A stretch of DNA of 64,000 bases from Blastococcus sp. URHD0036. Lineage in GTDB: Bacteria > Actinomycetota > Actinomycetes > Mycobacteriales > Geodermatophilaceae. The position numbers were made by a program, and so were the translations under genes. Positions 40,660 to 57,000 of this stretch are shown one piece after another. The DNA lies in assembly GCF_000701365.1 (NCBI RefSeq), contig NZ_JNIK01000015.1:186001-250000 (forward strand). The letters run 5' to 3'. The stretch's first letter is position 1; every line of letters starts with the position of its first letter. The notes below the pieces were generated by a model. It was not told where the DNA came from, ran no database searches, and was given only the letters and a program-made list of their open reading frames with translations.

Positions 40660-41409
40660 ATGATGGACGATGCGCCGCAGGTGACATTGCTCGACGGATT
40701 CGCGATCCGGACTGCCGCAGGCGACCCGCAGGCCTCGGGCGCCGAACTCCCGCACGTGGTGCAGCGGCTCGTCGCCCATCTGTGTCTCTCCGGCCGCCCG
40801 CCGCGGTCCGCTCTCGCCGGCCAGCTGTGGCCGGAGGCGTCCGAGGCCCACGCGCACGGCAGCCTGAGGTCGGCCCTGTGGCGGGTGCACAAGGCGCTGC
40901 CCGGTCTCGTGCAGGCCTCCGGTGACCACCTCTCCCTGGTCGACGGCGTCCGGGTCGACGTCCACGAGCTGGGAGACTGGGCCCAGCGCGTCCGGGATCC
41001 GAGATCCCCGCTGGAGGACGTGGAGATCCCCGCCTCGGGGCTCCGCGGAGAGCTGCTGCCGGGCTGGTACGACGACTGGGTCCTGCTCGAGCGCGAGCGG
41101 CTCCGCCAGGTGCGCCTCCACGCGCTCGAGCGGGTCGCCACCCGGCTCGCCGCCGCCGGGCGCTACGGCGACGCCCTCGAGGCCGCCTACGCCGCCGTGC
41201 GCGCCGAGCCGCTCCGCGAGAGCGCACACCGCACCGTGGTCTGCGTGCACCTGGCGGAGGGGAACGTGGCCGAGGCCCTCCGGGCCTACGACCAGTTCTG
41301 CGTGCTCCTCTCGGACGAGCTGGGGGTTGCGCCCAGTGACCACATGAGGCGGCTGGTCCCGCAGCTCGCCCGCGTCCCCGAGATGCGGCAACGGCTGCTG
41401 GTCGGGTGA
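40660..41409 (+). CDS. SARP-family transcriptional regulator (winged helix plus BTAD)
   Basis: This 249-residue regulator of the AfsR/DnrI/RedD type has an N-terminal OmpR-like winged helix (VTLLDGFAIRTAAG; LVAHLCLSGRPPRSALAGQL; WPEASEAHAHGSLRSALWRV; HKALPG). A bacterial transcriptional activator domain of TPR-like helices follows (LRGELLPGWYDDWVLLERER; EAAYAAVRAEPLRESAHRTV; AEALRAYDQFCVLLSDELGV). No ATPase or sensor domain is present, so it is a small SARP. SARPs bind heptamer direct repeats spaced 11 bp just upstream of the -10 element. Such repeats precede six transcription units in the next 15 kb. The ATG was chosen for its AGAGGA ribosome site. Confidence 0.88.
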   Translation: MMDDAPQVTLLDGFAIRTAAGDPQASGAELPHVVQRLVAHLCLSGRPPRSALAGQLWPEASEAHAHGSLRSALWRVHKALPGLVQASGDHLSLVDGVRVDVHELGDWAQRVRDPRSPLEDVEIPASGLRGELLPGWYDDWVLLERERLRQVRLHALERVATRLAAAGRYGDALEAAYAAVRAEPLRESAHRTVVCVHLAEGNVAEALRAYDQFCVLLSDELGVAPSDHMRRLVPQLARVPEMRQRLLVG

Positions 41410-41438
41410 CGTCGGGCTCGACCGGGAGCCTCGACCGC

Positions 41439-41470
41439 GTGACGGTCCCGTGACGGAGCCGTGTGAGTCT
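41439..41470 (+). promoter_or_regulatory. SARP-type operator/promoter of the HAD-M28 gene
   Basis: GTGACGG at 41439 and GTGACGG at 41450 are exactly 11 bp apart, and a degenerate third heptad (GTGTGAG) starts at 41461. An xAxxxT element (GAGTCT, 41465-41470) lies 8 bp after the second heptad. This implies transcription from about 41477, so translation should begin at the ATG at 41493 rather than at the upstream GTG. Confidence 0.72.
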
Positions 41471-41492
41471 GCCCGACCAGGGGGTGCGGGCG

Positions 41493-43136
41493 ATGGTGAT
41501 GGTGCTGTTCGACCTGGGCGAGACGCTGGAGTCCGACGGCGTGCTCCGGGCCGGAGCGTTGGAGGTCCTGCAGGAGCTCGCCGACCTGCGCCGGGACGGG
41601 CGTCCGGCCGCCGTGCTGGGCCTCCTGTCGGACACCCGGACCCCGGCGGGGCCGGACGACCTCGCCGCGATCGTCGCGGAGTACCGGGCGCTCCTCGACG
41701 AGCTCGGCATCCGCCGGTTCTTCCAGCCCTTCTCGCGGCGCGTGACCCTGTCGGCCCAGGTGGGCGTCGGGAAGCCCGCCGCGGCCGCGTTCCGGGCTGC
41801 CGTGGCGCGGGCCGACCCGACGCTCGGCTTCGCCGACGTCGTCTTCGTCACGGAGAACCCCGACCACGTGCGCGCCGCGCGAGTCCTCGGCATGACCGCT
41901 GTCCACGTGCGGCCGGCCGGCTCGCCGGGCGCCGGTGGAGCAGAGCTCCCCGCCGTCCTCCCCGTCGTGCGCGACCTGCTGGCCGCCGCCTCGGACGACG
42001 TCCCGGTGCTGGGCGGCGACCGGGCCCTCGCCTCGGTCGGCGCGCCCGCGGGGGAACGGCTGTTCCTCGTCGTGCAGAACGGCCGGCTGTTCCAGGTCGA
42101 CCACCCCGAGGTGCCGGTTCTCCTCGACACCGGTCGGCACCTGGTCGTGGACCTGGAGCCGGAGGTCGCGCAGGAGCTCGAGGACTCCGGCGGCGCCTGC
42201 TGGACGCTGCGTCCGCTCCCCGTCGGCCCGGTGGTCACCACCCCGGCCGCTTCCGGACGCGGACCCGAGACCGAGGCGGTACGGCGCTGCGTGGACCAGT
42301 TGTCCCGCGACCGGTTCGCGGCCGACCTCGCGACGCTCGCGGGACACGCCACACGCCACTCGGCGAGCGCGGACTTCGACGCCGCCGCGACATGGGCCGC
42401 CGCGCAGCTGGCGGAGGCCGGGTTCGCCGTGACGACGCAGCCGGTTCCCCGGGTCGGCGGGCGCTGCCGCAACGTGATCGCCGACCGGCCCGGCACGGGC
42501 CCGGCGCCCCGGGACGTCGTCCTGGTGACCGCGCACCTGGACTCGGTGAACCTCCGCGGCCCCGAGGCCCCCGCGCCGGGAGCGGACGACAACGCCTCCG
42601 GCAGCGCGGGCGTGCTGGCGATCGCGCGGGCGCTCGACGGGGCGGAGACCGAGCTGGATCTCCGGCTGGTGCTCTTCGGCGGTGAGGAGCAGGGGCTGTT
42701 CGGCAGCAGCCACCACGTCGCCGGACTGACCGGCGCGGAGCGGGCCCGCATCCGGGCGGTGGTGAACATGGACATGATCGCGGGCCTGAACACCGCCGTC
42801 CGGGGGGTGCTGCTCGAGGGCGCGGCCGTCTCCCGGACCGTCCTCGACGCGCTGGCGGAGGCCGCGGCGACCTACACCGGCCTCGCCGTCAGCATCGGGC
42901 TGAGCCCCGCCAACAGCGACCACGTCCCCTTCATCGACGTCGGCGTCCCGGCCGTGCTGACCATCGAGGGCGCCGACGGGACCAATCGGCGCGTCCACAC
43001 CGAGCGGGACACGGTGGCGGAGCTGGACCTCGACCTGGCGATGGAGATCCTCCGCATGAACGTGGCCTTCGTGGCCGGGGCGCTCGTCCCGGCCTCAGTG
43101 GGTGCCGGGAGCCGGGAGCTCGTGACGCCCCGGTGA
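41493..43136 (+). CDS. HAD-like domain fused to M28 zinc aminopeptidase
   Basis: This 547-residue protein has an N-terminal HAD-type region (LFDLGETLES at the start, GVGKPAAAAFRAAV and VVFVTENPDHVRAARVLGMT later, about residues 1-165). A linker follows, and then an M28 peptidase domain (about 260-535) with the ordered metal ligands VTAHLDS, GADDNASGSAG, FGGEEQGLFGS, NMDMIAG and NSDHVPF. The HAD part has D-x-G-x-T, so phosphatase activity is uncertain. No signal peptide is present, which is unusual for M28 enzymes. It is the first peptidase gene behind the SARP gene, with its own SARP-type operator. Confidence 0.85.
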   Translation: MVMVLFDLGETLESDGVLRAGALEVLQELADLRRDGRPAAVLGLLSDTRTPAGPDDLAAIVAEYRALLDELGIRRFFQPFSRRVTLSAQVGVGKPAAAAFRAAVARADPTLGFADVVFVTENPDHVRAARVLGMTAVHVRPAGSPGAGGAELPAVLPVVRDLLAAASDDVPVLGGDRALASVGAPAGERLFLVVQNGRLFQVDHPEVPVLLDTGRHLVVDLEPEVAQELEDSGGACWTLRPLPVGPVVTTPAASGRGPETEAVRRCVDQLSRDRFAADLATLAGHATRHSASADFDAAATWAAAQLAEAGFAVTTQPVPRVGGRCRNVIADRPGTGPAPRDVVLVTAHLDSVNLRGPEAPAPGADDNASGSAGVLAIARALDGAETELDLRLVLFGGEEQGLFGSSHHVAGLTGAERARIRAVVNMDMIAGLNTAVRGVLLEGAAVSRTVLDALAEAAATYTGLAVSIGLSPANSDHVPFIDVGVPAVLTIEGADGTNRRVHTERDTVAELDLDLAMEILRMNVAFVAGALVPASVGAGSRELVTPR

Positions 43137-43153
43137 TGCCGGGCGGTCAGCAT
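43122..43153 (+). promoter_or_regulatory. SARP-type operator/promoter of the M36 gene
   Basis: GTGACGC at 43122 and GTGATGC at 43133 are 11 bp apart and overlap the end of the HAD-M28 gene. An xAxxxT element (CAGCAT, 43148-43153) follows after exactly 8 bp. The implied transcript begins near 43160, just before an AGGGGA ribosome site and the ATG at 43192. Confidence 0.68.
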
Positions 43154-43241
43154 CGGGCCGACGACGGGGCGACGCCCGGACAGGGGACGACATGGCCACG
43201 AGAGACCTGCCGCAGGACTTCACGCGCTCTACGACGTAGGC

Positions 43242-45287
43242 GTGCGGAGCCTCCGCGGTGGGCCGCCGGCCGGGGTGGCGCCGCGCGCCGCGGGCCCGGC
43301 GGTCGGCGGCGGCGGACCGCGTCTGGACCTGGACGAGGCGACCGGGCTGCCCAACCGGGTGTCGGGGCTGGCCGCGCCCGCCCGATCGGTCGCGGCGGCG
43401 GCCGACTCGCCCGAGGCGGCGGTCGGCCGGCTCCTGGCCGAGCGCGCGGACCTCTGGCAGCTCTCGCCGGAGGACGCCGCAGGCATCGCCGTCGCCTCGG
43501 TGAGCGGCTCCCGCCTGCGCACCGCCCACCTCGTCCAGCGCGTCGACGGCGTCGACGTCTTCGGGTCCGACGTCACCGCCGCCATCGGCCCGGGCGGTGA
43601 GGTGGTCTCCGTGGCCGGCCAGTTCTTCCCCGGGGCGGCGGAGTCGGGCCCGCCCGGCCGCGCGGACGGGATCTCGCCGGAGCAGGCGATCGCGCTCGCC
43701 GCGACCGACCTGACCGGCCTGCCGGTCGACGCCTCTGCGTTCGTCGCGGAGGAGCGGGACGAGCAGGAGGAGCAGGACGGAACGGGTGACGGCGGCTACC
43801 GCAGCTACCTGGTCCCGCCGGCGGAGGCCTCGGGGGAGCTCCGGTTCGACCGCCCCGTCCGGGTCCGGGAGGTGCTGTTCCCGCTCGGCGGCCGGCGGTT
43901 CGCCCGCGGCTGGTACCTGGAACTGTGGATCGCGACCTTCCCGGCGTTCGCCTACGTCGTCGAGGCCGACGGTGCGCCGGAGGTCCTCTTCCGCCGGAAC
44001 CTCCGCGCCGACGTCGCCTTCGGCTACCGGGTCCACAACACCGGCGACGCCGTGTTCCGGCCGGAGGACGGCCCGGCACCGGGGTCGCCGCACCCGACCG
44101 GCGTCCCCGACGGCTTCCAGGCGCCGCCCGTCCCCGAGCGGCTGATCATCCTGGAGAGCCTGCTGCCCGGCCGGCCGTGGCTGCCGGACGGGGCGACCAC
44201 GACCGACGGCAACAACTGCCTGGCCTACGCCGACCTGCGCGGGCCCGACGGCCTCGGCAAGGGCGACGTCCTCGGGCAGGTCACCAGCCCGGGCGTGTTC
44301 GACCACACCTACGACCACGCGAAGCCGGCCTCGGACCCGGAGAACCTGCAGGCCAGCCTGGTCGGGATGTTCTTCCACGTGAACTGGCTGCACGACCGGT
44401 GGTACGAGGCCGGCTTCGACGAGGCCGCGGGCAACGCGCAGCAGGTGGCCATCGACGGGGGCGGCGTGGCCGGCGACCCGATCCTCGCCGAGGGCAACGA
44501 CTTCAGCGGCACCGACAACGCCAACATGCAGACGCCGGCGGACGGCAGCAGCCCCCGCATGCAGATGTTCGAGTTCCGGGGCACGTCGCCGTCGCGGACC
44601 AGCAACCACGAGGCCCTGATCACCTTCCACGAGATGGGCCACTACGTGACCAACCGGCTGGTCGGCAACGCCGCCGGGCTGGCCAACCGGCAGGGCCGCG
44701 CGATGGGGGAGGGCTGGGGGGACTTCTTCGCGATCTGCATGACCTCGCAGGAGACCGATGCCTTCGCCACCGGCGTGTTCCCGGTCGGCGGGTGGACCGA
44801 CCTGACCCCCACCTTCACCGACAACTACTACTTCTCGATCCGCCGCTACCCGTACTCGGCGGACATGGCGAAGAACCCGCTGACCTTCCGCCACATCGGC
44901 GACGGCGCCCTGCTGCCCCTCGGCCCGCCGCGCAGCCCGCAGGGCGGCGGCGCCAACAGCGCGGTGCACAACGCCGGGGAGATCTGGTGCGCGGCGCTGT
45001 GGGAGGTCTTCGTCGGCCTGGTGGCCCGGCACGGGCACGCGGAGGCCGAACGGCGGGTGCTCGAGTACGTCATCGGCGGCCTCAAGCTCACGCCGTCCAT
45101 GCCCACCTACACCCAGGCCCGCGACGGCATCCTCGACGCCGTCGCCGCGCTGGACCCGGACGACGTGTCCACCGTGTGGGCCGGCTTCGCCAAGCGCGGG
45201 ATGGGCGTCGACGCGGTGTCGCCACCTGCCACCTCGACGTCCCTGGCCGGGGTGGTCGAGAGCTTCGCCACCCCCTCGCCGCTCTAG
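43242..45287 (+). CDS. M36-type (fungalysin-like) metallopeptidase, probable 5' frameshift
   Basis: The frame from the GTG encodes 681 residues: an FTP-like propeptide (about 20-145) and an M36 catalytic domain with zinc motif HEMGHYVTNRL (463-467 HExxH) and the downstream ligand region GEGWGDFFAI. No signal peptide is seen. A better start, ATG at 43192 with AGGGGA upstream, encodes MATRDLPQDFTR and then stops. The bases that follow read LYDVGVRSL in the frame of the main gene. Adding one base near 43226 joins them, so the true product probably starts at 43192 or the N-terminus has been lost. The membrane-protein gene follows after 32 bp. Confidence 0.82.
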   Translation: MRSLRGGPPAGVAPRAAGPAVGGGGPRLDLDEATGLPNRVSGLAAPARSVAAAADSPEAAVGRLLAERADLWQLSPEDAAGIAVASVSGSRLRTAHLVQRVDGVDVFGSDVTAAIGPGGEVVSVAGQFFPGAAESGPPGRADGISPEQAIALAATDLTGLPVDASAFVAEERDEQEEQDGTGDGGYRSYLVPPAEASGELRFDRPVRVREVLFPLGGRRFARGWYLELWIATFPAFAYVVEADGAPEVLFRRNLRADVAFGYRVHNTGDAVFRPEDGPAPGSPHPTGVPDGFQAPPVPERLIILESLLPGRPWLPDGATTTDGNNCLAYADLRGPDGLGKGDVLGQVTSPGVFDHTYDHAKPASDPENLQASLVGMFFHVNWLHDRWYEAGFDEAAGNAQQVAIDGGGVAGDPILAEGNDFSGTDNANMQTPADGSSPRMQMFEFRGTSPSRTSNHEALITFHEMGHYVTNRLVGNAAGLANRQGRAMGEGWGDFFAICMTSQETDAFATGVFPVGGWTDLTPTFTDNYYFSIRRYPYSADMAKNPLTFRHIGDGALLPLGPPRSPQGGGANSAVHNAGEIWCAALWEVFVGLVARHGHAEAERRVLEYVIGGLKLTPSMPTYTQARDGILDAVAALDPDDVSTVWAGFAKRGMGVDAVSPPATSTSLAGVVESFATPSPL

Positions 45288-45319
45288 AGCCGCGCCCACC
45301 GGTCCCGGCAGGAGGCGGA

Positions 45320-47200
45320 GTGCAGCAGCAGCAGCGGGACGAGCTCGCCGGATACCTCGCCGGCTTCCTGCCGGCCCTGGACCTGAGGACCGCCACGGAG
45401 TTCGGCCGCGACGGACGGCCGGGGGAGTGGGACCCCGACCTGGCCTGCGCGATCCGCGTGGAGGTGGGCGAGCTGGTCGCCCGCAGTCCCGCGCTGCGCA
45501 CCGCGCTGGCGGACGTGCGCCGGGGCGCGGACCCGAGGCAGCTGGTGCCCTCGCTGGCGGCGGCGCTCGACGGCGACGACCCCCACCGCGCCGAGGTGCT
45601 GTGGGCCCTGCTCGGCGGCGATCCGCAGGAGCCGGTCGCCGGCCAGGACGGCCGCGGGCACCGGTTCAAGAGCGACGGCTGGCTGGCCCGGGGCTTCGCG
45701 GCCGGCTTGATGAACGTGCTGGTGCTGGCGACCGTGGTGATCGGGGTCCTCGCCGCCGGGGGCGGCCTGGAACCGCCGGCCGCGCGGGAGAGCCTGGCGG
45801 TGACCCTGCTCCGGCTGTTCACGCTCTGGTGCCTGGCCTTCCTCCCCGGCTGGCTGTACATCCGCTTCCTCGGCCAGCGGGCGGGCTCGGTGTGGCAGGA
45901 GTTCGTGGTGCACCTGCACCGGCTGGGCTGGGACGAGCCGCAGTTCCTCCCGCGGCCGCCCGAGAGCTCGCAGTTCCGTGCGGCCTGGCAGCAGGCCGGG
46001 GGCGCGCTGGTCGACCAGCGCCGGAACCTCTACCGCCTGAAGTTCGACAGCTACTACGGCCGGTCCGTCGTCGAGAACGTCCACAACACCAACTTCGCCG
46101 TCCGGGTCGAGACGATGTTCCCCGTGTTCCTCGCGACGGCGGTCTACTCCGTCGGCTGGTTCACGGTCCTCTGGGACACGACGGCCCTCGCCGATCCGAC
46201 CTCGCTGTGGGACGTGCTCCGCTTCGCGTTCCTCGGGGCCTACGTGTTCATCGTGCAGAGCCTGATCCGCCGGTACTTCCAGAACGACCTGCGGCCCGGC
46301 GCGTACGCCCACGCCGTCCTGCGCATCGTCGTGGTGCTGCTGATCGTCGTGGCGCTCCACCAGGTGATGCCGGGCGACGACGTCCGGGTGGAGGCAGCGA
46401 TGGCCTTCGTCGTCGGCATCTTCCCGATCATCGCGCTGCAGGCGCTGCAGCGGCTGGCGGCCAGCACGCTGCGGGTCGTCGTCCCGCAGCTGAGTCCCGA
46501 CTACCCGCTCAACCAGCTGGACGGGCTCGACATCTGGTACGAGGCCCGGCTCCTGGAAGAGGGCATCGAGGACATGCAGAACCTCCGGACCGCCAACCTG
46601 GTGGACGTCATGCTGCACACCCGCGTGCCGGTCGGGCGGCTCGTCGACTGGGTGGACCAGGCCACCCTCTACGTGCACCTGGACCGCATCGAGCGGGGCT
46701 TCGCCGAGCGGCGGCTGGTCCGTCAGGCCCGCAACACCGTGGCCCGCGCCCACCGGGTGGCGCACCGGCCCGGGGCGAAGGAGCCGGCGCCGGCTACGCC
46801 GGACCCGCCGGCGGTCCCCTCCCGCATCCGGGGCTCGGTCAACCCGGCGCTGCGGGCCGGCACCGAGACCCGCGTCCGCCTGCGCCAGCTGGGCATCCGG
46901 ACGGCGACCGACCTGCTCAAGGCGTTCCCGCCCGATCAGATCGACCCGCGGGACCCGCCCGGGACCGACGGGTCCCCGGTCTTCCGCCACCCCTTCCCCG
47001 ACGAGGGCCTGGACGTCGACCAGATCAGGACGCTGGTCCGGGTCCTCGACGAGGACACCCACCTGGCCGCCGTCTGGAACTGGCAGGCCCACGGCGTGGT
47101 CGCCCGGAGTGCGGCACACCGGCCGCGGTCGGCGGGCGAGCGCCGTCCTCCCGTCGAGCCGACGGGACGGGTGGGTGATGCGCCGGTGACGGCGTCGTGA
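45320..47200 (+). CDS. unrecognised polytopic membrane protein of the peptidase island
   Basis: This 626-residue protein starts at a GTG with GGAGG upstream. About six helices lie between residues 130 and 380 (LMNVLVLATVVIGVLAAGGG; LLRLFTLWCLAFLPGWLYIR; MFPVFLATAVYSVGWFTVLW; VLRFAFLGAYVFIVQSLI; VLRIVVVLLIVVAL; AMAFVVGIFPIIALQAL). A long cytosolic C-terminal part includes PALRAGTETRVRLRQLGIRT, which resembles a helix-hairpin-helix. The N-terminal 120 residues are soluble. No family is recognised. It is co-oriented with the M36 gene, 32 bp behind it, and may localise or release the island's signal-less hydrolases. That role is inference. Confidence 0.72.
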   Translation: MQQQQRDELAGYLAGFLPALDLRTATEFGRDGRPGEWDPDLACAIRVEVGELVARSPALRTALADVRRGADPRQLVPSLAAALDGDDPHRAEVLWALLGGDPQEPVAGQDGRGHRFKSDGWLARGFAAGLMNVLVLATVVIGVLAAGGGLEPPAARESLAVTLLRLFTLWCLAFLPGWLYIRFLGQRAGSVWQEFVVHLHRLGWDEPQFLPRPPESSQFRAAWQQAGGALVDQRRNLYRLKFDSYYGRSVVENVHNTNFAVRVETMFPVFLATAVYSVGWFTVLWDTTALADPTSLWDVLRFAFLGAYVFIVQSLIRRYFQNDLRPGAYAHAVLRIVVVLLIVVALHQVMPGDDVRVEAAMAFVVGIFPIIALQALQRLAASTLRVVVPQLSPDYPLNQLDGLDIWYEARLLEEGIEDMQNLRTANLVDVMLHTRVPVGRLVDWVDQATLYVHLDRIERGFAERRLVRQARNTVARAHRVAHRPGAKEPAPATPDPPAVPSRIRGSVNPALRAGTETRVRLRQLGIRTATDLLKAFPPDQIDPRDPPGTDGSPVFRHPFPDEGLDVDQIRTLVRVLDEDTHLAAVWNWQAHGVVARSAAHRPRSAGERRPPVEPTGRVGDAPVTAS

Positions 47201-47217
47201 CGGCCGGCGCGTGAGGT
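47175..47217 (+). promoter_or_regulatory. three-repeat SARP-type operator with -10, leaderless nuclease promoter
   Basis: GTGATGC (47175), GTGACGG (47186) and GTGACGG (47197) form three heptads at exact 11-bp steps, partly inside the end of the membrane-protein gene. TGAGGT (47212-47217) follows the last heptad after 8 bp and precedes the nuclease ATG by only 6 bp. Transcription and translation would therefore start at or next to the same base. Confidence 0.75.
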
Positions 47218-47223
47218 GGGGGC

Positions 47224-48057
47224 ATGACCGACGTGCTGGCCGTCGAGGTGCGCGAGGGCTACGACCCGGCCTTCCTCGAGGTGGAGATCCCGGTCCCCGC
47301 GCCGGTCGACGCCGTCTCGGCCGACGTGGCGCACACGGTCGACGGGGGGACCCTCGTGCGGCACGTGCACTTCTCGCTGCAGATGAGCGCCTCGCGGCGG
47401 TTCGCCCTGTGGGTCGGGTGGAACATCGACGGCGGCAGCCTCAAGGCGCTCAGCCGCACGGGCCAGGAGTTCGTCAACGACCCGCAGATCGCCGCAGCCG
47501 GCCAGGTGGGGAACGCCCTGTACGCCGGCAACCGCCTCGACCGGGGCCACATCGCGCGCCGGGCGGACCTGCTCTGGGGCAGCCTCGCCGAGGCCGGCCG
47601 GGCCAACCGTGACTCGTTCCTCTTCACCAACATCACGCCGCAGATGGACGACTTCAACCAGAGCGCGCAGGACGGCGTCTGGGGCCGGCTCGAGGACGCG
47701 GTCTTCGCCGACGTGGAGGTCCAGGACCTGCGGGTGAGCGTCTTCGGCGGCCCCGTCTTCGCCGCCGACGACCGCGCCTACCGCGGGGTGCGGCTGCCAC
47801 GGGAGTACTGGAAGCTCATCGCCTTCCGGGAGGCGGGGGTGCTCAAGGCGCGGGCGTTCCTGCTCACGCAGGCCCTCGACCAGCTCGAGCTGCTGGACCT
47901 GGACGAGTTCCGCGTCTTCCAGGTGGCGGTCGCCGAGCTCGAGGCGCGCACCGGTCTGCGCTTCCCGGACGTGCTCCGGGCTGCCGACGTGGGTGCGCTG
48001 CCCGGGCTGGTGGGGGAGCGGGAGCCACTCGGCAGCCCGGCCGACATCCGGTGGTGA
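47224..48057 (+). CDS. DNA/RNA non-specific endonuclease (NUC family)
   Basis: This 277-residue nuclease has the beta-beta-alpha-metal active site of the Serratia nuclease family: NRLDRGHIARRAD (D106-R-G-H109, H109 the general base) and FTNITPQMDDFNQSAQ (N145 the Mg ligand). The family hydrolyses single- and double-stranded DNA and RNA and is normally exported. Here no signal peptide is present, and no ribosome site lies between the -10-like element and the ATG, which suggests a leaderless mRNA. It converges with the hydrolase gene, leaving 9 bp between stops. Confidence 0.88.
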   Translation: MTDVLAVEVREGYDPAFLEVEIPVPAPVDAVSADVAHTVDGGTLVRHVHFSLQMSASRRFALWVGWNIDGGSLKALSRTGQEFVNDPQIAAAGQVGNALYAGNRLDRGHIARRADLLWGSLAEAGRANRDSFLFTNITPQMDDFNQSAQDGVWGRLEDAVFADVEVQDLRVSVFGGPVFAADDRAYRGVRLPREYWKLIAFREAGVLKARAFLLTQALDQLELLDLDEFRVFQVAVAELEARTGLRFPDVLRAADVGALPGLVGEREPLGSPADIRW

Positions 48058-48066
48058 GCCCGCGGC

Positions 48067-49368
<1,302 letters not shown>

Positions 49369-49376
49369 CGGGCCTC

Positions 49377-51125
49377 CTAGATGGACTGGATCGCACGCAT
49401 GAGGTCGAGCAGGCCGTGGCCCTCGAAGTAGCGCTCGCGGCCCAGCGGGGTCGCACTCGCCAGGAAGATCTCCTTGACCTCCAGTGGCCGGCCGATGAAC
49501 TCGCGCCGGATGGACAGGAAGGCCGCGATGGCCCCCGAGACGTGCGGCGCGGCCATGCTGGTGCCGCTGTCCTCGACGTAGAAGGCGGGGTCCGGGTCGC
49601 CGGTCGCCGTGGCCACGGCGTGCTCGTGGTCGGCGGGGAGGGGCTCCATGTGCGAGAGCGCGTCGGCCTTCTTCCGCCCCGCCGCGCACGACAGGATCCG
49701 TTCCCCCGGCGCCACGAGGTCCGGCTTCAGCCGGCCGTCGCCCGTGGGCCCCTTCGAGGAGAAGTAGGAGATGCCGAACATGTGCGGCGACTCCCGGTGC
49801 GTCGAGCCGACCGTGAGCGCGTGCTGGGCGTTGCCCGGGTCGTTGATGGTGTTCGACAGGCCCACCTTGGTCACGCGGCCGTTCGCCGTCAGAGCCGTGT
49901 AGCCGGTGTTGCCGGCCGCGGTCACGACGACCACCCCCGACTGCACCAGCCGGTTCACCTCGGTGCACAGCGGGCTCTGCCCGCAGGCGAACATCTCGGC
50001 GTCGAACTCGTAGCCCACGCTGAGGTTGACGCCGTGGACGCGGAGCAGCTTCGGGTTGTCGTTGAGCTTCTCCCGGATGTACTCCAGGGCGCGCACGATG
50101 GTGCTGGAGCGCCCGCCGCCGTCGTCGTCGAGCACCCGGAGGCTGACCAGCCGGCAGCGCGGGGCGACCCCGTGGAAGCGGTCGCGCTCGCGGTCGGTGC
50201 GGACCAGCCGCTCGGTGGTCGTCCGCTTCCGCTTCGGCAGGTTCTCCTGCTCGTCGTCGGCGACGATGCGCTCCTCCTGCTCCAGGACCACCGCCGGCAC
50301 GTCCGGGGGGACGCGGCCGGCGATGATCCCGGCGACGTGCGTCCCGTGGCCGAGCGGGTCGTCGAGCGCGTGCTCCACGTGCGCCGCCAGCCGGGTCCGC
50401 CGCTCCGCCTCGTCGAGCATCGCTCCGCCCGGGAGCTCCTCGTCGGGGTCGGCGAGCCGCGCGCCGTCGATCGGCACGAAGCAGCGGTGCAGGTTGCTCA
50501 CCGACGGGTCGCGCAGCGCGTGGTCCCCCGGCGGGCCGAAGTGCGGGTGCGACGCGTCGATCCCGGAGTCGATGACCGCCCAGGTGACGTTCTCCCCGGT
50601 GGCCTCGAAGGAGCGCAGCGCCGCGTCGCCCTTGATCGTGGCGACGGACCGGGAGATCTGGGCCCGCACCGGGAAGTCGGGCCAGAGCTTGTAGATGATG
50701 CGGTACCGCATCTCGTCCGGATCGTGACCGGCCGCGTCGCCCGCCGCGTCCCGGCGGGACCGTGCCGCGGCCTGCTGCTCGTCGGCGGCGACGAGCGTCT
50801 TCCACTCGCGCAGGGTCATGTCCGCGCGGAAGTAGGCCTTGGACACCTTGGCGACGTCCCACGGCGGACCGGGCTCCCAGTTGCCGATGACCTGCCGGAA
50901 CAGCTCACGGAACGCCGAGCCGGCGCCGGCCAGCCCGTCGACGTGCAGGACGTTGAGCTCCACCATGTACGGGCCGCGCTCGTCCGGCGTGGAGCCCAGG
51001 CCCCAGCGCCGGCGGTTGGCGTCGTCCTCGAGCTCCGGTGGAGCCGTCAGGCGGGACAGCCGGTCGCTGCGGAACTCGCCGCTGGGCACCGCCTCCGCGT
51101 CGGTGCCGTCGTCGCCGCTGGTCAT
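49377..51125 (-). CDS. subtilisin-like serine protease (S8)
   Basis: This 582-residue protease has the complete S8 triad: D186 (WAVIDSGIDASHPHF), H260 (GHGTHVAG) and S523 (GTSMAAPH), with the oxyanion asparagine region VVVTAAGNTGYTAL. The first 170 residues form a soluble N-terminal region and no signal peptide is present, which is atypical for a subtilase. A polar insertion around 290-320 (LEQEERIVADDEQENLPKRK) may be an autocleavage or regulatory loop. GGAGGAA precedes the ATG. It is third in the minus-strand operon. Confidence 0.88.
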   Translation of the reverse strand: MTSGDDGTDAEAVPSGEFRSDRLSRLTAPPELEDDANRRRWGLGSTPDERGPYMVELNVLHVDGLAGAGSAFRELFRQVIGNWEPGPPWDVAKVSKAYFRADMTLREWKTLVAADEQQAAARSRRDAAGDAAGHDPDEMRYRIIYKLWPDFPVRAQISRSVATIKGDAALRSFEATGENVTWAVIDSGIDASHPHFGPPGDHALRDPSVSNLHRCFVPIDGARLADPDEELPGGAMLDEAERRTRLAAHVEHALDDPLGHGTHVAGIIAGRVPPDVPAVVLEQEERIVADDEQENLPKRKRTTTERLVRTDRERDRFHGVAPRCRLVSLRVLDDDGGGRSSTIVRALEYIREKLNDNPKLLRVHGVNLSVGYEFDAEMFACGQSPLCTEVNRLVQSGVVVVTAAGNTGYTALTANGRVTKVGLSNTINDPGNAQHALTVGSTHRESPHMFGISYFSSKGPTGDGRLKPDLVAPGERILSCAAGRKKADALSHMEPLPADHEHAVATATGDPDPAFYVEDSGTSMAAPHVSGAIAAFLSIRREFIGRPLEVKEIFLASATPLGRERYFEGHGLLDLMRAIQSI

Positions 51126-51152
51126 CGCGTTCCTCCGCGTCAGGTGTGCTGG

Positions 51153-51455: not shown

Positions 51456-51496
51456 CGGAGGTGCCGGCTGCCGGACGGGGCCGCCCGGAGACCTCC

Positions 51497-53008
51497 TCAG
51501 CCGGCTCCCGGGCCGGCCGCGGCGACGAGCCGCTTCAGGGACTCGAGGTCGGACTCCAGGTGCGCCAGGACGGTGGTGACCTCCCCGTTCGTCCGGGGGC
51601 TCGGCACGAGGGCCCGCTCGCCGTCCGCGGCGTCGGCCGGCGACGCCGCGGGGCTCACCGACACGGTTGCCGTCATCGTCGGACCCGGCGCCGAGATCTG
51701 GGTGATCGCCACCGCGGTGTCCCGCCCGGTGTACGAGCCCGTGCTCGGTGTCGACGTGGGGGTCAGCTCGGTGTTCGCGCTGGTCCCCGGGTAGCAGTCG
51801 CCCGCGTCCCCGCGGTTGCGGTTGCGCTCGAGGTCCCGTTTCCCGTCGGCCTGGACCAGCCCGACCAGGTAGTGGTTCTCGTCGGCGTTGCTCGGCTGGT
51901 CGTCGTCCACGTGCCAGACCAGCAGGCCGCCGCCCGGCAGCAGGCCGTCGTAGCCGCTCTGCTGCCGGTTCTCCACGAGGAAGTACTCCGACCCCCGTGT
52001 GCCGTCGCGCCAGAGCCGGTGCACCTTTCGGCCGGCCTTGACGTCCTCGAAGGTCACCTTCCCGGCCTTGGTGACGCCGACCTCCGTCACCCAGCCCTGC
52101 TGCAGCTTGCACCAAGCCGAGGGGTGCGCCGGGAGGTCTCCGCCGCCGTTCCACGAGCCCCCGGCCATGAGGCACCAGTTCCCGATGCCCTCCGAGGTGT
52201 CGTCGGTGTCGTACAGGTCCGGGAAGCCGAACAGCAGGTGCCCGAGCTCGTGCGCGCTGACGCCGATCTTCGCGTCCTCGGGGATGGTGAGGTAGGCGAA
52301 GATCTTGGTGCCGTCGACGGCGTACTCGGTGGGCAGGACCCACTTGTGCGACCAGATGTCGCCCGGCTCGCCCGTCGCCTCGCCGCCGCGACCGGCGTGG
52401 ACGACCACGAACGCGTCGACGAAGCCGTTGCCGTCGTTGTCGTAGGGCTTGTAGTCCACCGTGCGGTTCGCGGCCTTCGCCGCGTCCCTGGCCAGGAACT
52501 GCGCACGCGGCGTCCCGGTGGGCCGGCCGATCCCGAAGTTGCCGTTGGCGTACCAGGACAGGCTCCGCGGCAGCCGGACCGGGCCGACCACCTCGCCCAC
52601 GAGGTCGATGAGGCCCCCGCTGACCTCCTTGTAGTACTCGGCGACACTGCCGCGCGGGAGCACCCCGGTGGAGAAGAACAGGTCCGTGAAGTGCTGCGTC
52701 GTCTGGGTCATCGGCCGGTCCGCGAAGTCCGCCAGCACGACGACGACCCGCACCTTGCCGCGCAGCGGGGTCCGCTCCGCCGCCGCGCGCGTGATGCTCC
52801 GGCTGGAGGTGCCCAGCGGGAACTGGTCGGGCGGGATGATCGTCCCGTCGTCGAAACCCGGCCAGTGGGGGCGGCGGGGCAGGGTCAGCTGGCGCAGGAT
52901 CGGCGACTCGGCGTCGGCGCGGAACTGCTGCAGCTCCTCGCGCAGGCGTTCCCGCAGTTCCGGGCTGGGCGCCACGGCGCAGAGGTCCCGCCACACGGCA
53001 ACGGACAT
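51497..53008 (-). CDS. M6-family (immune-inhibitor-A-like) metallopeptidase
   Basis: This 503-residue enzyme has the zinc motif SAHELGHLLFGFPDLYD (HExxH at 253-257, with the following F-P-D-L-Y-D characteristic of M6). It also has an N-terminal VVVVLADFADRPM strand, Ca-type DNDGNGFVDAFVVVHAG and VENRQQSGYDGLLPG. It starts at MSVAVWRDLC with GGGAG upstream, and no signal peptide is present although M6 enzymes are normally secreted. A SARP-type repeat pair lies 52-69 bp upstream. It leads the operon M6, small protein, S8, alpha/beta hydrolase. Confidence 0.86.
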   Translation of the reverse strand: MSVAVWRDLCAVAPSPELRERLREELQQFRADAESPILRQLTLPRRPHWPGFDDGTIIPPDQFPLGTSSRSITRAAAERTPLRGKVRVVVVLADFADRPMTQTTQHFTDLFFSTGVLPRGSVAEYYKEVSGGLIDLVGEVVGPVRLPRSLSWYANGNFGIGRPTGTPRAQFLARDAAKAANRTVDYKPYDNDGNGFVDAFVVVHAGRGGEATGEPGDIWSHKWVLPTEYAVDGTKIFAYLTIPEDAKIGVSAHELGHLLFGFPDLYDTDDTSEGIGNWCLMAGGSWNGGGDLPAHPSAWCKLQQGWVTEVGVTKAGKVTFEDVKAGRKVHRLWRDGTRGSEYFLVENRQQSGYDGLLPGGGLLVWHVDDDQPSNADENHYLVGLVQADGKRDLERNRNRGDAGDCYPGTSANTELTPTSTPSTGSYTGRDTAVAITQISAPGPTMTATVSVSPAASPADAADGERALVPSPRTNGEVTTVLAHLESDLESLKRLVAAAGPGAG

Positions 53009-53045
53009 GGCACATCTCCCGCTCTGATCGGCTGTCGGTCCCGTC

Positions 53046-53077
53046 ATGCTCGGCGGGCTGCGTCACGCCGGCGTCAC
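53046..53077 (-). promoter_or_regulatory. SARP-type operator/promoter of the M6-S8 operon
   Basis: On the minus strand GTGACGC starts at 53077 and again at 53066, exactly 11 bp apart. An xAxxxT element (GAGCAT, 53051 down to 53046) follows after 8 bp. Transcription would start about 30 nt before the M6 ATG. Confidence 0.7.
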
Positions 53078-53098
53078 CGGCACGTTCCCCCCGCCGCG

Positions 53099-53131
53099 GT
53101 GACACCGCGGTGACGCGCCGGGCGCCACGCT
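53099..53131 (+). promoter_or_regulatory. SARP-type operator/promoter of the DUF3616-M4 operon
   Basis: GTGACAC (53099) and GTGACGC (53110) are 11 bp apart. An xAxxxT element (CACGCT, 53126-53131) follows after 9 bp. This pair is back to back with the minus-strand pair at 53077, so the 166-bp divergent gap holds two opposed operators. Confidence 0.66.
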
Positions 53132-53174
53132 GCTCCGCGGACGTCCCGGACCGGGGCGTGGACGGCGCTGGGGG

Positions 53175-54272
53175 ATGGACATGGAGCCGGATCGCCAGGT
53201 GCTCCTCCGCTTCGGGACCGGAGCCGCCGCGACCGACGGCGCGGACCTGTCCGCCGTCGTCTGCGACGGGGACCTGCTGTGGGTCGCGGGTGACGAGGCG
53301 CCGGTGCTGCACCGCTTCACCCGGCAGGACGGCGGCTCCTACGGCGCCATCCGGACGTTCCCCCTCGACGTGCTCGCCGGGCTCGAGGCGGACGCGGAGA
53401 TCGACGTCGAGGGCATGGACCGCGCCGCCGACGACCTCTGGCTGGTCGGGTCGCACAGCCGGACCAGGAAGGAACCCGACGACGACGACGGCGACGACAA
53501 GGTGCTCGAGAAGCTGGCGACGGTGCGGGAGCGCCGGACCCGGAACGTCGTCCTCAGGCTGCCGCTCGAGGGGGAGGGGGCGGCAGCCCACCCGGTCGGC
53601 GCCGGCGACGGCGGCCGGCGGACGGTCGCCGTGCTGGACGGCGACCTCCTGACCGCACTGGCCACCGACACGCTCCTGGCGCCCTTCCTCCCGCTGCCCG
53701 GCAAGGACGGCGGGCTGGACATCGAAGGCCTCGTGGCGCTGGACGGCGCGCTGCTCCTGGGCCTCCGGGGCCCGGTCCTGCGCGGCTGGGCGGTCGTGCT
53801 GGAGGTACGGCTGCGCACCGATCCGGACGACGCCGGCCGGCTCCGCCTCGACGCGGCCGCCGGGCCCGGCTACCGCTCGATCGTGCTGGACCTGGACGGC
53901 CTCGGCGTCCGGGACCTGTGCCGGGTCGGCGACGACGTCCTGGTGCTGGCCGGGCCGACCATGGCCCTCGACGGGCCGTTCCGGCTCTACCGCTGGCCGG
54001 GCGCGGTCGCGGACCGGCAGCGGGTCGTCCGGAGCGCCGAGCTCACCCGCCTCGCGGAGCTGCCGTCCGGACGCGGCGCCGACGAGGGGCTCGACCACCC
54101 CGAGGGCGTCACGCCGCTCGGCGACGACGCCGTCCTCGTCGTCTACGACAGCCCGGCGCCCGGTCGCCTCTCGGCCTCGCGGACCGTGCTCGCCGACGTC
54201 TTCCCGCTGGATCCCAGCCGTTCCCTCGCCGAACCGATCGCAGGAGAGGTCCCATGTCCATCCGCACCCTGA
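53175..54272 (+). CDS. DUF3616 family protein
   Basis: This 365-residue protein is built from repeated strand units (DLSAVVCDGDLLWVAGDEAP; DVEGMDRAADDLWLVGSHSR; LDIEGLVALDGALLLGLRGP; DLDGLGVRDLCRVGDDVLVL), matching DUF3616, a predicted beta-propeller often coded next to hydrolases. A charged loop (RKEPDDDDGDDKVLEK) interrupts it. No signal peptide or catalytic triad is apparent. The start is ATG at 53175 or 53181. It overlaps the M4 peptidase gene by 19 bp. Confidence 0.8.
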   Translation: MDMEPDRQVLLRFGTGAAATDGADLSAVVCDGDLLWVAGDEAPVLHRFTRQDGGSYGAIRTFPLDVLAGLEADAEIDVEGMDRAADDLWLVGSHSRTRKEPDDDDGDDKVLEKLATVRERRTRNVVLRLPLEGEGAAAHPVGAGDGGRRTVAVLDGDLLTALATDTLLAPFLPLPGKDGGLDIEGLVALDGALLLGLRGPVLRGWAVVLEVRLRTDPDDAGRLRLDAAAGPGYRSIVLDLDGLGVRDLCRVGDDVLVLAGPTMALDGPFRLYRWPGAVADRQRVVRSAELTRLAELPSGRGADEGLDHPEGVTPLGDDAVLVVYDSPAPGRLSASRTVLADVFPLDPSRSLAEPIAGEVPCPSAP

Positions 54273-55480
54273 ACTGCATCGTCCCGCCGCACGTCCTCGA
54301 GCACCTGCGGCAGAGCAGCGACACCGCCGTCCGGGAGGCCGCCCTCACGACCCTGCTGGACACGACGATGCTCCGGGGTCAGCGGTCCGTCCGCGGGTCG
54401 CTCCTGGGGCTCGCCTCGCCGGCGCAGGGACGGCGGACGGTCTTCGACTGCGGGCACCGGACGAACCTGGCCACCGCCGTGCTGGCCCGCAGCGAGGACG
54501 GCGCCGCCTCGGCCGACGCCTCGGTCGACCAGGCCTTCGACGGCCTGGGATCGACCCGGCAGTTCTACGGCGACGTCCTGGGCCGCAACTCCATCGACGA
54601 CCGGGGGATGCGCCTGGACGGGTACGTCCACCGCGGCGTCCGGTACAACAACGCGTTCTGGGACGGCCAGGAGATGGTGTTCGGCGACGGTGACGGGCGG
54701 ATCTTCACCGACTTCACCGGCTCCCTCGACGTGATCGGCCACGAGCTCACCCACGGGGTCACCGAGTTCACGGCCGGCCTGGAGTACCACGTGCAGTCCG
54801 GCGCCCTGAACGAGTCGATCTCCGACGTGTTCGGCTCGCTGGTGAAGCAGTGGGTGCGCCAGCAGACCGCCGACCAGGCCGACTGGCTGATCGGCGACGA
54901 GATCTTCACCCCGGACGTGGACGCCGACGCGCTGCGCTCGCTGAAGAGCCCGGGGGAGGCCTACGACAGCGAACTGCTCGGCAAGGACCCCCAGCCGGCC
55001 CACATGCGCGACTTCGTCGACCTGCCCGACACCGAGGCGGGCGACAACGGCGGGGTGCACGTCAACTCCGGCATCCCCAACAAGGCGTTCTACCTCGTGG
55101 CGACCGGCATCGGCGGCTACGCGTGGGAGGCCCCCGGCCACATCTGGTACGAGTCGCTGCGGGCGTCCACGGCCACGACCGACTTCCAGGGCTTCGCCGA
55201 CACGACGTTCAGCAAGGCGGGGGAGCTGTTCGGGCAGGACAGCGTGGAGCAGAAGGCGGTGGCGTCCGCCTGGGGCGATGTCGGCCTCCCCGTGAGCTGC
55301 GCTCCCAAGGGCATGCGATCGGGGCCGTCGGGCGGGGCCGGGGGCGGTGGCGACCCGCTCGGCGACCTGAGCCGGCAGGTGTCGGAACTCGCGCGGCAGC
55401 TGCAGGAGCTCACGCAGCAGGTGCAGGGGCAGCCGAAGCCGTCCGGCAAGGGCGGCCGATCGGGCGCCGGACGGGCGTGA
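54254..55480 (+). CDS. protealysin-like M4 metallopeptidase
   Basis: This 408-residue enzyme begins with the short protealysin-type propeptide (NCIVPPHVLEHL), without a signal peptide. It has zinc motif HELTH (163-167), the glutamate ligand region GALNESISDVFGS and the substrate-binding GGVHVNSGIPNKAFYL. A Gly/Ser-rich linker and a coiled tail (LSRQVSELARQLQELTQQVQ) follow. Protealysin-like enzymes are known to be made without signal peptides and can act inside the cell or after release. The AGGAGAGG site lies inside the upstream gene. The emfourin gene follows by 19 bp. Confidence 0.9.
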   Translation: MSIRTLNCIVPPHVLEHLRQSSDTAVREAALTTLLDTTMLRGQRSVRGSLLGLASPAQGRRTVFDCGHRTNLATAVLARSEDGAASADASVDQAFDGLGSTRQFYGDVLGRNSIDDRGMRLDGYVHRGVRYNNAFWDGQEMVFGDGDGRIFTDFTGSLDVIGHELTHGVTEFTAGLEYHVQSGALNESISDVFGSLVKQWVRQQTADQADWLIGDEIFTPDVDADALRSLKSPGEAYDSELLGKDPQPAHMRDFVDLPDTEAGDNGGVHVNSGIPNKAFYLVATGIGGYAWEAPGHIWYESLRASTATTDFQGFADTTFSKAGELFGQDSVEQKAVASAWGDVGLPVSCAPKGMRSGPSGGAGGGGDPLGDLSRQVSELARQLQELTQQVQGQPKPSGKGGRSGAGRA

Positions 55481-55499
55481 CGGGCCCCAGACTGTCCGC

Positions 55500-55805
55500 G
55501 TGAAGGTCACGCTCGAGACGCACGGCGGGCTGGCCGGCGGGCTGCGGCTCGGCGGCCGGCCGGTCGTCCTCGACGCCGCCCGGCTGCCGGAGGACGACGC
55601 CCGGACGCTCGGGGACCTCGTGGCGGCGGCCCGCGCCGAGCCCGCCCCTCAGTCGGCTCGTCGCTCCGCACCGGACGCGATGAGCTACACCGTGACGGTC
55701 GAGGACGGGAGCGCGTCGGACGTCCTCCACCGGTCCGACGACGGCATGACGCCGGCCTTCGCCGCGCTGCTGGACTGGCTCGGCGGCCGGGAGCCCGTCG
55801 GCTGA
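55500..55805 (+). CDS. emfourin-like inhibitor of the M4 peptidase
   Basis: This 101-residue acidic protein has MKVTLETHGGLAGGLRLGGR, a variable middle, AMSYTVTVEDG and TPAFAALLDWL. This is the layout of emfourin (M4in), the slow tight-binding protealysin inhibitor coded next to protealysin genes. The position, 19 bp after a protealysin-type M4 gene on the same strand, agrees. The start is a GTG. It presumably keeps the M4 enzyme inactive in the cytosol. Confidence 0.82.
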   Translation: MKVTLETHGGLAGGLRLGGRPVVLDAARLPEDDARTLGDLVAAARAEPAPQSARRSAPDAMSYTVTVEDGSASDVLHRSDDGMTPAFAALLDWLGGREPVG

Positions 55806-55824
55806 CTCCCGGCCCCGGAACGCG

Positions 55825-55856
55825 GTGATGTCGCGGTGACGGGTGCTCCGCACAGT
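55825..55856 (+). promoter_or_regulatory. SARP-type operator/promoter of the S1 protease gene
   Basis: GTGATGT (55825) and GTGACGG (55836) are 11 bp apart, and CACAGT (55851-55856) follows after exactly 8 bp. The implied transcript begins near 55863, so the in-frame start at 55843 is excluded and ATG 55924 is favoured. Confidence 0.7.
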
Positions 55857-55923
55857 TCAGGCATCCCTGGACGACACGGGGGACCGCACCTCCGACGACG
55901 CACGACGGAACGGAGTGGGACAC

Positions 55924-57000
55924 ATGTCCGAGTTGACCTCCCCGGCCCTGAGCCTCGACGACCTCGCGAACGCCGCGCCGATCGCGGCCACCGAGAGCAT
56001 GCCGCCGGAGATGGCGGAGTTGATCGAGCCGCACTCGGGCATCTACGTGCTCTCCGACGACAAGCCCGCCCTGGACCTCGGGTCCGCCCGTGCCCGGGCG
56101 GCGAGCGACGTGTGGCACGTCGACGCCACGCACGGTGACCTCCGGACGACGATCCCCGGGCTGGACCGGACCGAACTCCCGGTGGAGGCCGCCGAGTCGG
56201 CACGCGCCGAGGAGACAGGTACGGAGAGCTACCGCCCGGCGTGGCAGGAACAGCAGTTCCTCCCCAGGCTCGCGCCCTTCAGCCTGTCCGGCCGGGAGAC
56301 CGGCTCGCCGACCGCTCGGGTGTTCCTGGAGCCGCGCGCGGCGGAGGCGGAGCGGCTGGCCTACCCGTGGTGCACCATCGGCCGGGTCATCACGAACAGC
56401 TCCGCCGGTTCGTGGATCGGCAGCGGTGTCCTCGTGGGTCCGAACCTGGTGCTGACCGCGGGTCACGTCGCGCCCTGGGGCGGGAGCAACTGGTCGATGG
56501 AGTTCGTCCCCGCGCTGCGGCAGGGCGATCCCAACCCCCGTCCCTTCGGCAGCTCGTTCGTCTCCCAGTACCGGGGTTACAACCGGCCGGGCGACGTCTT
56601 CGGCTACGACTACGTCATCTGCCAGCTGTACAACCCCCTCGGCCAGGCGCTCGGCTGGATGGGCAGCCAGTCCTGGGGCAACGAGGACGAGTACGAGCGT
56701 CGGGACTACACGTCCTCGGGGTACCCGGCCACCTTCGGCGGGCGGCCGGCCGTCCAGTTCAGCGTCGGGATCCGGGACCTCGACAACGACAACCCCGGCA
56801 AGGAGCTGGAGACCGTCGAGTACACGACGGGCGGCTGGTCGGGCGGCCCGCTGTGGTTCTTCGCCGGAACGAGCCCGTTGATCGTCGGCGTCCTCAGCGG
56901 TGCCGAGACCGACGGGTTCGACCCGCGGCGGGACGTCTACGCCGGCTACTCGGCGATGATCGACCTCGTGCGGTTCGGCCTGGACAACTGGCGGCCGTGA
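55924..57000 (+). CDS. trypsin-like serine protease (S1/V8-type)
   Basis: This 358-residue protease has the triad H181 (LTAGHV), D229 (YDYVICQL) and S306 (GGWSGGPL), within a V8/glutamyl-endopeptidase-like domain from about 130 onward (VGPNLVLTAGHVAPW). The first 130 residues are acidic and probably a propeptide, with no signal peptide. The ATG at 55924 (MSELTSP, GGAGTG upstream) was chosen over an upstream in-frame ATG that overlaps the SARP-type promoter. It converges with the FAD oxidoreductase gene. Confidence 0.85.
   Translation: MSELTSPALSLDDLANAAPIAATESMPPEMAELIEPHSGIYVLSDDKPALDLGSARARAASDVWHVDATHGDLRTTIPGLDRTELPVEAAESARAEETGTESYRPAWQEQQFLPRLAPFSLSGRETGSPTARVFLEPRAAEAERLAYPWCTIGRVITNSSAGSWIGSGVLVGPNLVLTAGHVAPWGGSNWSMEFVPALRQGDPNPRPFGSSFVSQYRGYNRPGDVFGYDYVICQLYNPLGQALGWMGSQSWGNEDEYERRDYTSSGYPATFGGRPAVQFSVGIRDLDNDNPGKELETVEYTTGGWSGGPLWFFAGTSPLIVGVLSGAETDGFDPRRDVYAGYSAMIDLVRFGLDNWRP

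Follow-up and report, generated by a model that had tools for sequence, protein, structure and literature searches.

A heptad-repeat promoter box that co-occurs with a SARP-type regulator precedes operons of leaderless hydrolases in Blastococcus and injection-system operons in its relatives

The window analysed here is a stretch of 64,000 nucleotides from Blastococcus sp. URHD0036 (contig NZ_JNIK01000015.1, positions 186,001 to 250,000 of the forward strand). It encodes a regulator of the Streptomyces antibiotic regulatory protein (SARP) type, followed by an island of genes whose promoters carry direct repeats of the heptad GTGAYGS (Table 1; gene starts are approximate, the gene finder being a simple codon-bias script). 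SARPs are known for antibiotic clusters. A family scan of the SARP neighbours, from 40.6 to 57 kb, describes peptidases, a nuclease and hydrolases and not an antibiotic cluster. Box 2 leads into the M36 and membrane protein genes, and the M4 protease and emfourin genes are adjacent. By hydrophobicity, a signal-peptide-like N-terminus is absent from all 10 soluble window products that were checked; they are called leaderless below. A first-pass annotation of the sequence had proposed a single SARP regulon of six units within this island. More important than that regulon is its recurrence in the family Geodermatophilaceae, where it also reaches the operons of extracellular contractile injection systems (eCIS).

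A full promoter box was defined as GTGAYGS-N4-GTGAYGS with a NANNNT hexamer 8 to 9 bp further on. Every heptad that the first-pass annotation had listed is present at its reported place and on its reported strand. The window holds 9 heptad pairs with at most one mismatch per pair against 1.41 expected, a number reached by 0 of 100 shuffles, and 8 of these pairs fall in the 15.4-kb island (mean 0.26, maximum 2, in 200 dinucleotide shuffles). Five island pairs are followed by NANNNT at 8 or 9 bp (mean 0.01, maximum 1, in 200 dinucleotide shuffles), while the same pair scan of the remaining window returned one pair and no full promoter. The source genome (5.18 Mb) contains 9 exact pairs at 7 places, the island contributing 5 pairs at 4 places, and the reversed pattern used as a control gives 1 exact pair. 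With one mismatch allowed, 56 pairs are found against 23 for the reversed pattern, and many of the single-mismatch pairs outside the island are therefore background. The repeats might be a product of chance or of codon usage in GTG-rich, high-GC DNA, a view that can point to the heptads of boxes 2 and 3, which overlap the ends of open reading frames (ORFs), GTGA containing the stop codon TGA. This origin is contradicted by the shuffles, by the reversed-pattern controls and by the fixed spacing to the -10 hexamer, and is hardly credible.

The annotation had described an xAxxxT hexamer behind all six repeats, five at 8 bp and one at 9 bp. This holds for five promoters, four at 8 bp and one at 9 bp, and fails for the nuclease promoter, where the second place of the hexamer at 8 bp is G. 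Hexamers of the form TGAGNT lie behind repeats at the same distance in two relatives (TGAGCT at locus L163, TGAGAT at locus L047), a recurrence which suggests that TGAGNT may be a real variant of the -10 element; the gene behind the L047 promoter gave no nuclease match. Elsewhere in the source genome, contig C1 carries a full box (TAGCTT at 8 bp) ahead of a gene for a 75-amino-acid (aa) protein and then a second subtilase gene, and this operon is likewise leaderless. The triple repeat at C17:41774 and the pair at C6:66932 have no NANNNT at 8 or 9 bp and were set aside as members of the regulon.

Table 1. Genes and promoter boxes of the SARP island (positions count from the first nucleotide of the window)
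Feature	Position	Strand	Basis and remarks
Weak candidate autoregulatory element, ATGACGC + GTGACGA, 10-bp step	40336..40352	+	Read directly; upstream of small ORF and SARP
73-aa protein, LLIRVW motif, upstream of SARP	40367..40588	+	Gene finder; no NCBIfam match
SARP-type activator, winged helix and BTAD, 249 aa	40660..41409	+	PF03704, 1.1e-19
Box 1, GTGACGG-N4-GTGACGG	41439..41456	+	GAGTCT at 41465-41470 (8 bp)
M28 peptidase, N-terminal extension HAD-like by eye	41493..43136 (ORF from 41463)	+	PF04389, 3.2e-37; no HAD match
Box 2, GTGACGC-N4-GTGATGC	43122..43139	+	CAGCAT at 43148-43153 (8 bp)
M36 fungalysin-type metallopeptidase, no signal-peptide-like start; start uncertain	43242..45287	+	PF02128, 1.1e-79; N-terminal hydrophobicity
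Membrane protein, internal hydrophobic segments, no family match	45320..47200	+	Gene finder, hydrophobicity, family scan including NCBIfam
Box 3, three heptads	47175..47203	+	TGAGGT at 47212-47217 (8 bp); ATG 7 bp beyond
DNA/RNA non-specific endonuclease, no signal-peptide-like start	47224..48057	+	PF01223, 2e-40
Alpha/beta-hydrolase-like protein (name by eye), last in minus-strand run	48067..49368	-	Gene finder; no NCBIfam match
S8 subtilase, no signal-peptide-like start	49377..51125	-	PF00082, 9.2e-39
100-aa protein; a similar one adjoins M6 in L138	51153..51455	-	Gene finder
M6-type metallopeptidase, no signal-peptide-like start	51497..53008	-	PF05547, 1.3e-22; 82% identical in L138
Box 4, GTGACGC-N4-GTGACGC	53060..53077	-	GAGCAT at 53051-53046 (8 bp); leads into M6, 100-aa protein, S8, alpha/beta hydrolase
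Box 5, GTGACAC-N4-GTGACGC, 1 mismatch	53099..53116	+	CACGCT at 53126-53131 (9 bp); leads into DUF3616, M4, emfourin
DUF3616 protein	53175..54272	+	PF12275, 2.6e-90
M4 metallopeptidase, no signal-peptide-like start	54254..55480	+	PF02868, 2.7e-52
Emfourin (M4-protease inhibitor family)	55500..55805	+	PF20242, 8.5e-19
Box 6, GTGATGT-N4-GTGACGG, 1 mismatch	55825..55842	+	CACAGT at 55851-55856 (8 bp)
Trypsin-like peptidase, no signal-peptide-like start	55924..57000	+	PF00089, 7.8e-05

The family profile of the SARP matches AfsR across the winged helix and BTAD (positions 22-223, E 5.6e-15), and the single sequence matches AfsR at E 1.3e-6. Its AlphaFold2 model has a mean predicted local distance difference test score (pLDDT) of 90.5, with values of 64-84 in the first 30 residues, a mean above 90 for residues 31-110 and values below 50 in the last nine. 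The N-terminal part of the model runs strand-strand-helix-helix-helix-hairpin, and in the presumed recognition helix (residues 61-78) L68 and R69 are invariant and W73 and R74 nearly invariant among 51 homologues. The SARP has homologues in Blastococcus, Geodermatophilus, Modestobacter, Streptomyces, Kutzneria, Micromonospora, Kribbella, Arthrobacter and other genera. The weak candidate element upstream of the SARP has a 10-bp step, and 10-bp units are described for a secondary operator of PimR in the accessible part of that study (PMC5930380). Small proteins with an LIRVW-like motif adjoin several SARPs and sometimes lie between the SARP and the box (window 40367-40588, L243:6472-6651, L245:6123-6371); such a protein is a possible partner of the SARP. 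An obligatory partnership was rejected, frames with the motif being found within 900 bp upstream of only 8 of 71 SARP homologues. Further upstream, positions 38513-39234 encode a LuxR-type (GerE) helix-turn-helix (PF00196) of which the gene finder calls the last 50 codons only, and this may be a decayed regulator.

The box and the SARP were compared across 112 Geodermatophilaceae genomes, a SARP hit being a match at E 1e-25 or better. Of the 58 SARP-positive genomes 53 have a full box, and of the 54 SARP-negative ones 2 do (Fisher 1.7e-23, a value that overstates the independence of related genomes), with totals of 237 and 2 boxes, respectively. Across all 112 genomes the reversed pattern gives 2 hits. 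The split between genomes with and without the SARP is significant within three of the four large genera (9/9 versus 0/14 in genus g12, 19/21 versus 0/5 in g4 and 12/12 versus 1/11 in g6; 11/14 versus 0/2 in g11, P = 0.08). Genomes G080, G082, G084, G093 and G106 have the SARP without a box (the G106 hit contains a stop), and G010 and G135 have a box without the SARP. Genomes with more SARP copies have more boxes (rho 0.71). Of the 31 boxes in three genomes that each form a single contig, 24 lie more than 100 kb from the SARP gene, which argues for action in trans. The unevenness among promoters that the first-pass annotation anticipated is thus borne out, the boxes being concentrated in the island and nearly absent from family members that lack the SARP.

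The same pattern emerges when no motif is specified. In a scan for tandem identical 6-mers at 45 SARP loci of the family, GTGACG at 11 bp was found 73 times, against 0 to 3 times at six other short spacings; at 32 more distant loci GTGACG is again the top 6-mer, with a weaker signal (9 at 11 bp, 8 at 22 bp and 7 at 9 bp). Among 58 exact pairs from loci chosen by the pair alone, 17 are followed by NANNNT at 8 bp and 12 at 9 bp, and other spacings give 0 to 3 apart from 9 at 19 bp, the spot (8+11) expected when a third heptad follows. All 116 unique pairs, which include loci chosen for eCIS or for known full boxes (L215-L234) that the 58-pair count excludes, give 43 at 8 bp, 25 at 9 bp, 21 at 19 bp and 0 to 5 elsewhere. 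In SARP-negative genomes NANNNT follows 1 of 19 pairs at 8 or 9 bp. Boxes also occur in other families, which ruled out the box as a trait of Geodermatophilaceae only: a class-wide sample of 394 genomes yielded 41 boxes outside the family, of which 8 have a SARP homologue within 2.5 kb (an overlapping double hit in G473 was counted once).

Direct repeats at about 11 bp are also the form of OmpR-family sites, and the boxes could in principle belong to a response regulator of that family (MtrA, PhoP or similar) with the SARP as a bystander. The triple repeat without NANNNT at C17:41774-41802 (L009:1495-1520) lies between genes that by eye resemble those of a BMP-type lipoprotein and a D-Ala-D-Ala carboxypeptidase; it could fit this explanation and may mark a further OmpR-family site. 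All or nearly all actinobacteria have the core response regulators, however, whereas the boxes are lost together with the SARP (only 2 of the 54 genomes without it have one), and in other families boxes stand beside SARP genes. We therefore regard a response regulator as a very unlikely owner of the boxes. The co-occurrence, the SARP-adjacent boxes of other families and the geometry, which is that of classical SARP operators, together suggest that the SARP itself binds the boxes.

Boxes also precede homologues of the M6, nuclease, S8 and alpha/beta-hydrolase genes in relatives, which is the conservation ahead of orthologues that the first-pass annotation had called for. The M6 homologue at L138 (82% identical) has a box followed by an identical GAGCAT hexamer, which there lies at 9 bp and not at 8, and the nuclease homologue at L163 (79%) is the second gene of a box operon with the TGAGCT promoter. 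S8 and alpha/beta-hydrolase homologues (31-47%) follow boxes in L142 and L042, the alpha/beta hydrolase having a 31% homologue behind S8 in L042/L215, and another box-driven DUF3616 gene occurs in L086. Two gene starts deserve comment. At L163:11709-13327 a 238-aa gene starting MTDVL lies between the box and the nuclease gene, and the window nuclease starts MTDVL right behind its box, as though the window had lost an L163-like first gene and retained the start of that gene. Just ahead of the M36 ORF ends a 15-codon frame that begins with ATG (43191-43242), and the N-terminus of the M36 protein may be broken or differently started.

To characterize what the boxes drive, 30 box-driven genes and 30 other genes of the same loci were sampled (from 51 and 553, respectively). 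Peptidases make up 8 of the 30 box-driven genes (M43, S8 twice, M28, M8 twice, M4 and M14) and 1 of the 30 controls (P = 0.026), and this lone control, an S8 peptidase, is itself encoded second in the box operon on C1. Other sampled box-driven products include CHAT, SNase, patatin, tyrosinase, haem peroxidase, DUF3616, LysM and sheath proteins, and the controls include an eCIS tube protein and metabolic, regulatory and transport genes. A wider set of 73 box-downstream proteins (of 76, three shorter ones being excluded from alignment and scanning) adds Tle1-type phospholipases (3) and Exo_endo_phos (2), among 25 of 100 families listed. A hydrophobic N-terminal segment is found in 2 of 51 box genes against 79 of 553 others (P = 0.03). 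Separately, at L069:4295-7138 a box with TAGCGT stands ahead of a gene for a 947-aa protein whose N-terminus is TIR-like by eye, which suggests conflict or defence genes within the regulon.

Enzymes of the M36, M4, M6, S8, M28 and NUC1 types are usually secreted, and the SARP might simply control an ordinary exoenzyme regulon for nutrient scavenging. Against this, signal-peptide-like starts are found in 0 of the 10 soluble window products checked and 2 of 51 box genes of relatives. The same box heads eCIS operons, and the M4 gene is accompanied by an emfourin gene; nutrient scavenging is on these grounds an unlikely role. Emfourin adjacency has a precedent in the protealysin-emfourin operon of Serratia, proposed in the available text of that study to encode an antibacterial effector and its immunity protein (PMC9505478). 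Here too an M4 protease gene adjoins the inhibitor gene; unlike the Serratia pair, it lies in an actinobacterium, in a SARP-box operon and behind a DUF3616 gene. The family scan reported no protealysin propeptide match for the window M4 protein, and the propeptide is present in the box-driven relative L044.

The connection to injection systems was examined through the sheath family PF04984, hits to which were found in 20 family genomes (19 over the cut-off). The SARP is present in 17 of these 20 genomes and in 41 of the 92 others (P = 0.001). The 17 SARP-positive genomes contain 18 sheath loci, and each was read for boxes with at most one mismatch, one-mismatch pairs lacking NANNNT at 7 to 9 bp being excluded. 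A box heads the sheath-bearing gene run in 10 of the 18 loci, and the box of an eleventh (G098:C54) stands at the start of a longer run that extends into the sheath run; the loci of SARP-negative family genomes have a box in 0 of 3. Two of the 21 loci, in G086 (SARP-positive) and G018 (SARP-negative), lack a tube match and resemble remnants of a sheath locus. The gene order in Blastococcus sp. DSM 46786 (L182) is S8, alpha/beta hydrolase, box, nuclease, box, sheath and tube, with a nuclease 73-75% identical to that of the window. The SARP, heptads and sheath lie side by side outside the family in Streptomyces zaomyceticus, S. nymphaeiformis and a Streptosporangiaceae bacterium, and also in G185 and G050; the promoters of the two Streptomyces have TAGACC and TAAGTC at 8 bp, which do not conform to NANNNT. 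A sheath guessed by eye beside the SARP of G391 (L242) found no support when five eCIS sheaths were used as tblastn queries. Other regulators, BTAD-like and response-regulator-like by eye, adjoin box-less eCIS loci (L226:11-808, L227:8787-9470), so the family does not control its eCIS in one uniform way. The source genome has no match to the PF04984 sheath or to the PF06841 tube, and the window is not an eCIS.

We consider it likely that the SARP activates a leaderless lytic arsenal, the eCIS included where one is present. In this model the 249-aa SARP would be a DNA-binding activator whose monomers occupy two or three GTGAYGS heptads, which recur at 11-bp steps along a single face of the helix, ending 8 to 9 bp upstream of a weak -10 element, where the SARP would recruit RNA polymerase. 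Its targets would be scattered operons of signal-peptide-less peptidases, a nuclease and hydrolases, plus at least one protease inhibitor, emfourin, and in relatives the same switch would also drive the structural operons of the eCIS. The products would most likely form a coordinately made lytic arsenal, delivered by the eCIS, released by lysis or used in programmed death of the producer. The window strain would have kept the switch and the enzymes, with no sheath or tube match in its genome. The six-unit regulon of the first-pass annotation is supported by the co-occurrence and the conservation, and its scope was too small, leaving out the C1 subtilase operon and the eCIS operons.

Several observations weigh against this reading. 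The pairing is not strict, since a full box is missing from 5 of 58 SARP-positive genomes, and beyond the family the genome-level association is weaker (10/50 versus 24/342, P = 0.006). The SARP was found in neither of the two other searched genomes of the window's genus and is thus accessory. Some sampled box-driven genes look metabolic or mobile (a P450, an alpha-amylase-like protein and a transposase), 11 of the 30 have no family match, and hydrolases also appear among the controls (a PD-(D/E)XK nuclease, an amidase, a beta-lactamase-type protein and another serine hydrolase), as do a TIR protein and a Tle1-type phospholipase fragment from a box locus. At the eCIS loci, 7 of 18 have no box at the head (G005, G065, G083, G084, G086, G118 and G124), and the difference between 11 of 18 and 0 of 3 loci is not significant alone (P = 0.09). 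No PF04984 hit was found in 41 of the 58 SARP-positive genomes, which rules out the eCIS as the general purpose of the regulon.

Those 41 genomes, in which the SARP is kept, would suit a different explanation, internal programmed death or anti-phage suicide, in which SARP induction leads the enzymes to digest the contents of the producer and the eCIS is one of several killing modules. The enzymes are leaderless, box-driven genes include CHAT and a TIR-WD40-like protein (TIR by eye, WD40 by family scan), and the eCIS of S. coelicolor is needed for developmental cell death in the available text of PMC10020575. The inhibitor encoded with one protease fits antagonism equally, and the analysis turned up no trigger or sensor; suicide is a substantial but doubtful possibility.

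Known SARP operators consist of two to three heptamer direct repeats with 4-bp spacers (PMC5930380, as far as its accessible text goes). The present regulator shares with AfsR/PimR-type SARPs the winged helix, BTAD, the AfsR profile match and heptamer repeats with 4-bp spacers. It differs in its heptad (GTGAYGS here, CGGCAAG for PimR), in its 249-aa length without an ATPase domain and in its presumed targets, leaderless hydrolases and eCIS operons at scattered places in the genome. Geller et al. (2021) counted BTAD among the shell domains of eCIS and suggested that BTAD genes may regulate eCIS; the available portion of that work describes neither an operator nor a regulon extending past the locus, and mentions no dispersed hydrolase targets (PMC8213781), whereas here the box is defined and is found with or without an eCIS. 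SlpR/SCO4263 of Streptomyces is likewise a dedicated regulator of an actinobacterial eCIS cluster, and in the main texts, as far as available, the word SARP has 0 occurrences (PMC10286715, PMC13277306, PMC10020575). A link between SARPs and contractile injection systems was predicted from STRING without experiment in the accessible part of PMC13102240. Literature searches, which left subscription papers mostly out of reach, returned no description of this operator and none of a dispersed hydrolase regulon. The view that a SARP-run hydrolase island is unusual is upheld.

To our knowledge, the control and cargo of actinobacterial contractile injection systems are largely open questions. We propose, tentatively and as something only a little short of evenly balanced, that a single SARP lineage, whose operator is fixed, serves throughout Actinomycetota as a mobile master switch of antagonism or cell death. 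This switch would couple injection machines with dispersed leaderless hydrolases; the box alone would predict eCIS or lysis-released effectors, and some strains, that of the window among them, would run the programme without an injection machine that they lost or never had. A promoter code of 30 bp, shared by the machines and the dispersed leaderless enzymes, would yield a genome-wide list of candidate effectors and immunity proteins, and it would move SARPs from antibiotic clusters into the control of protein weapons or cell death.

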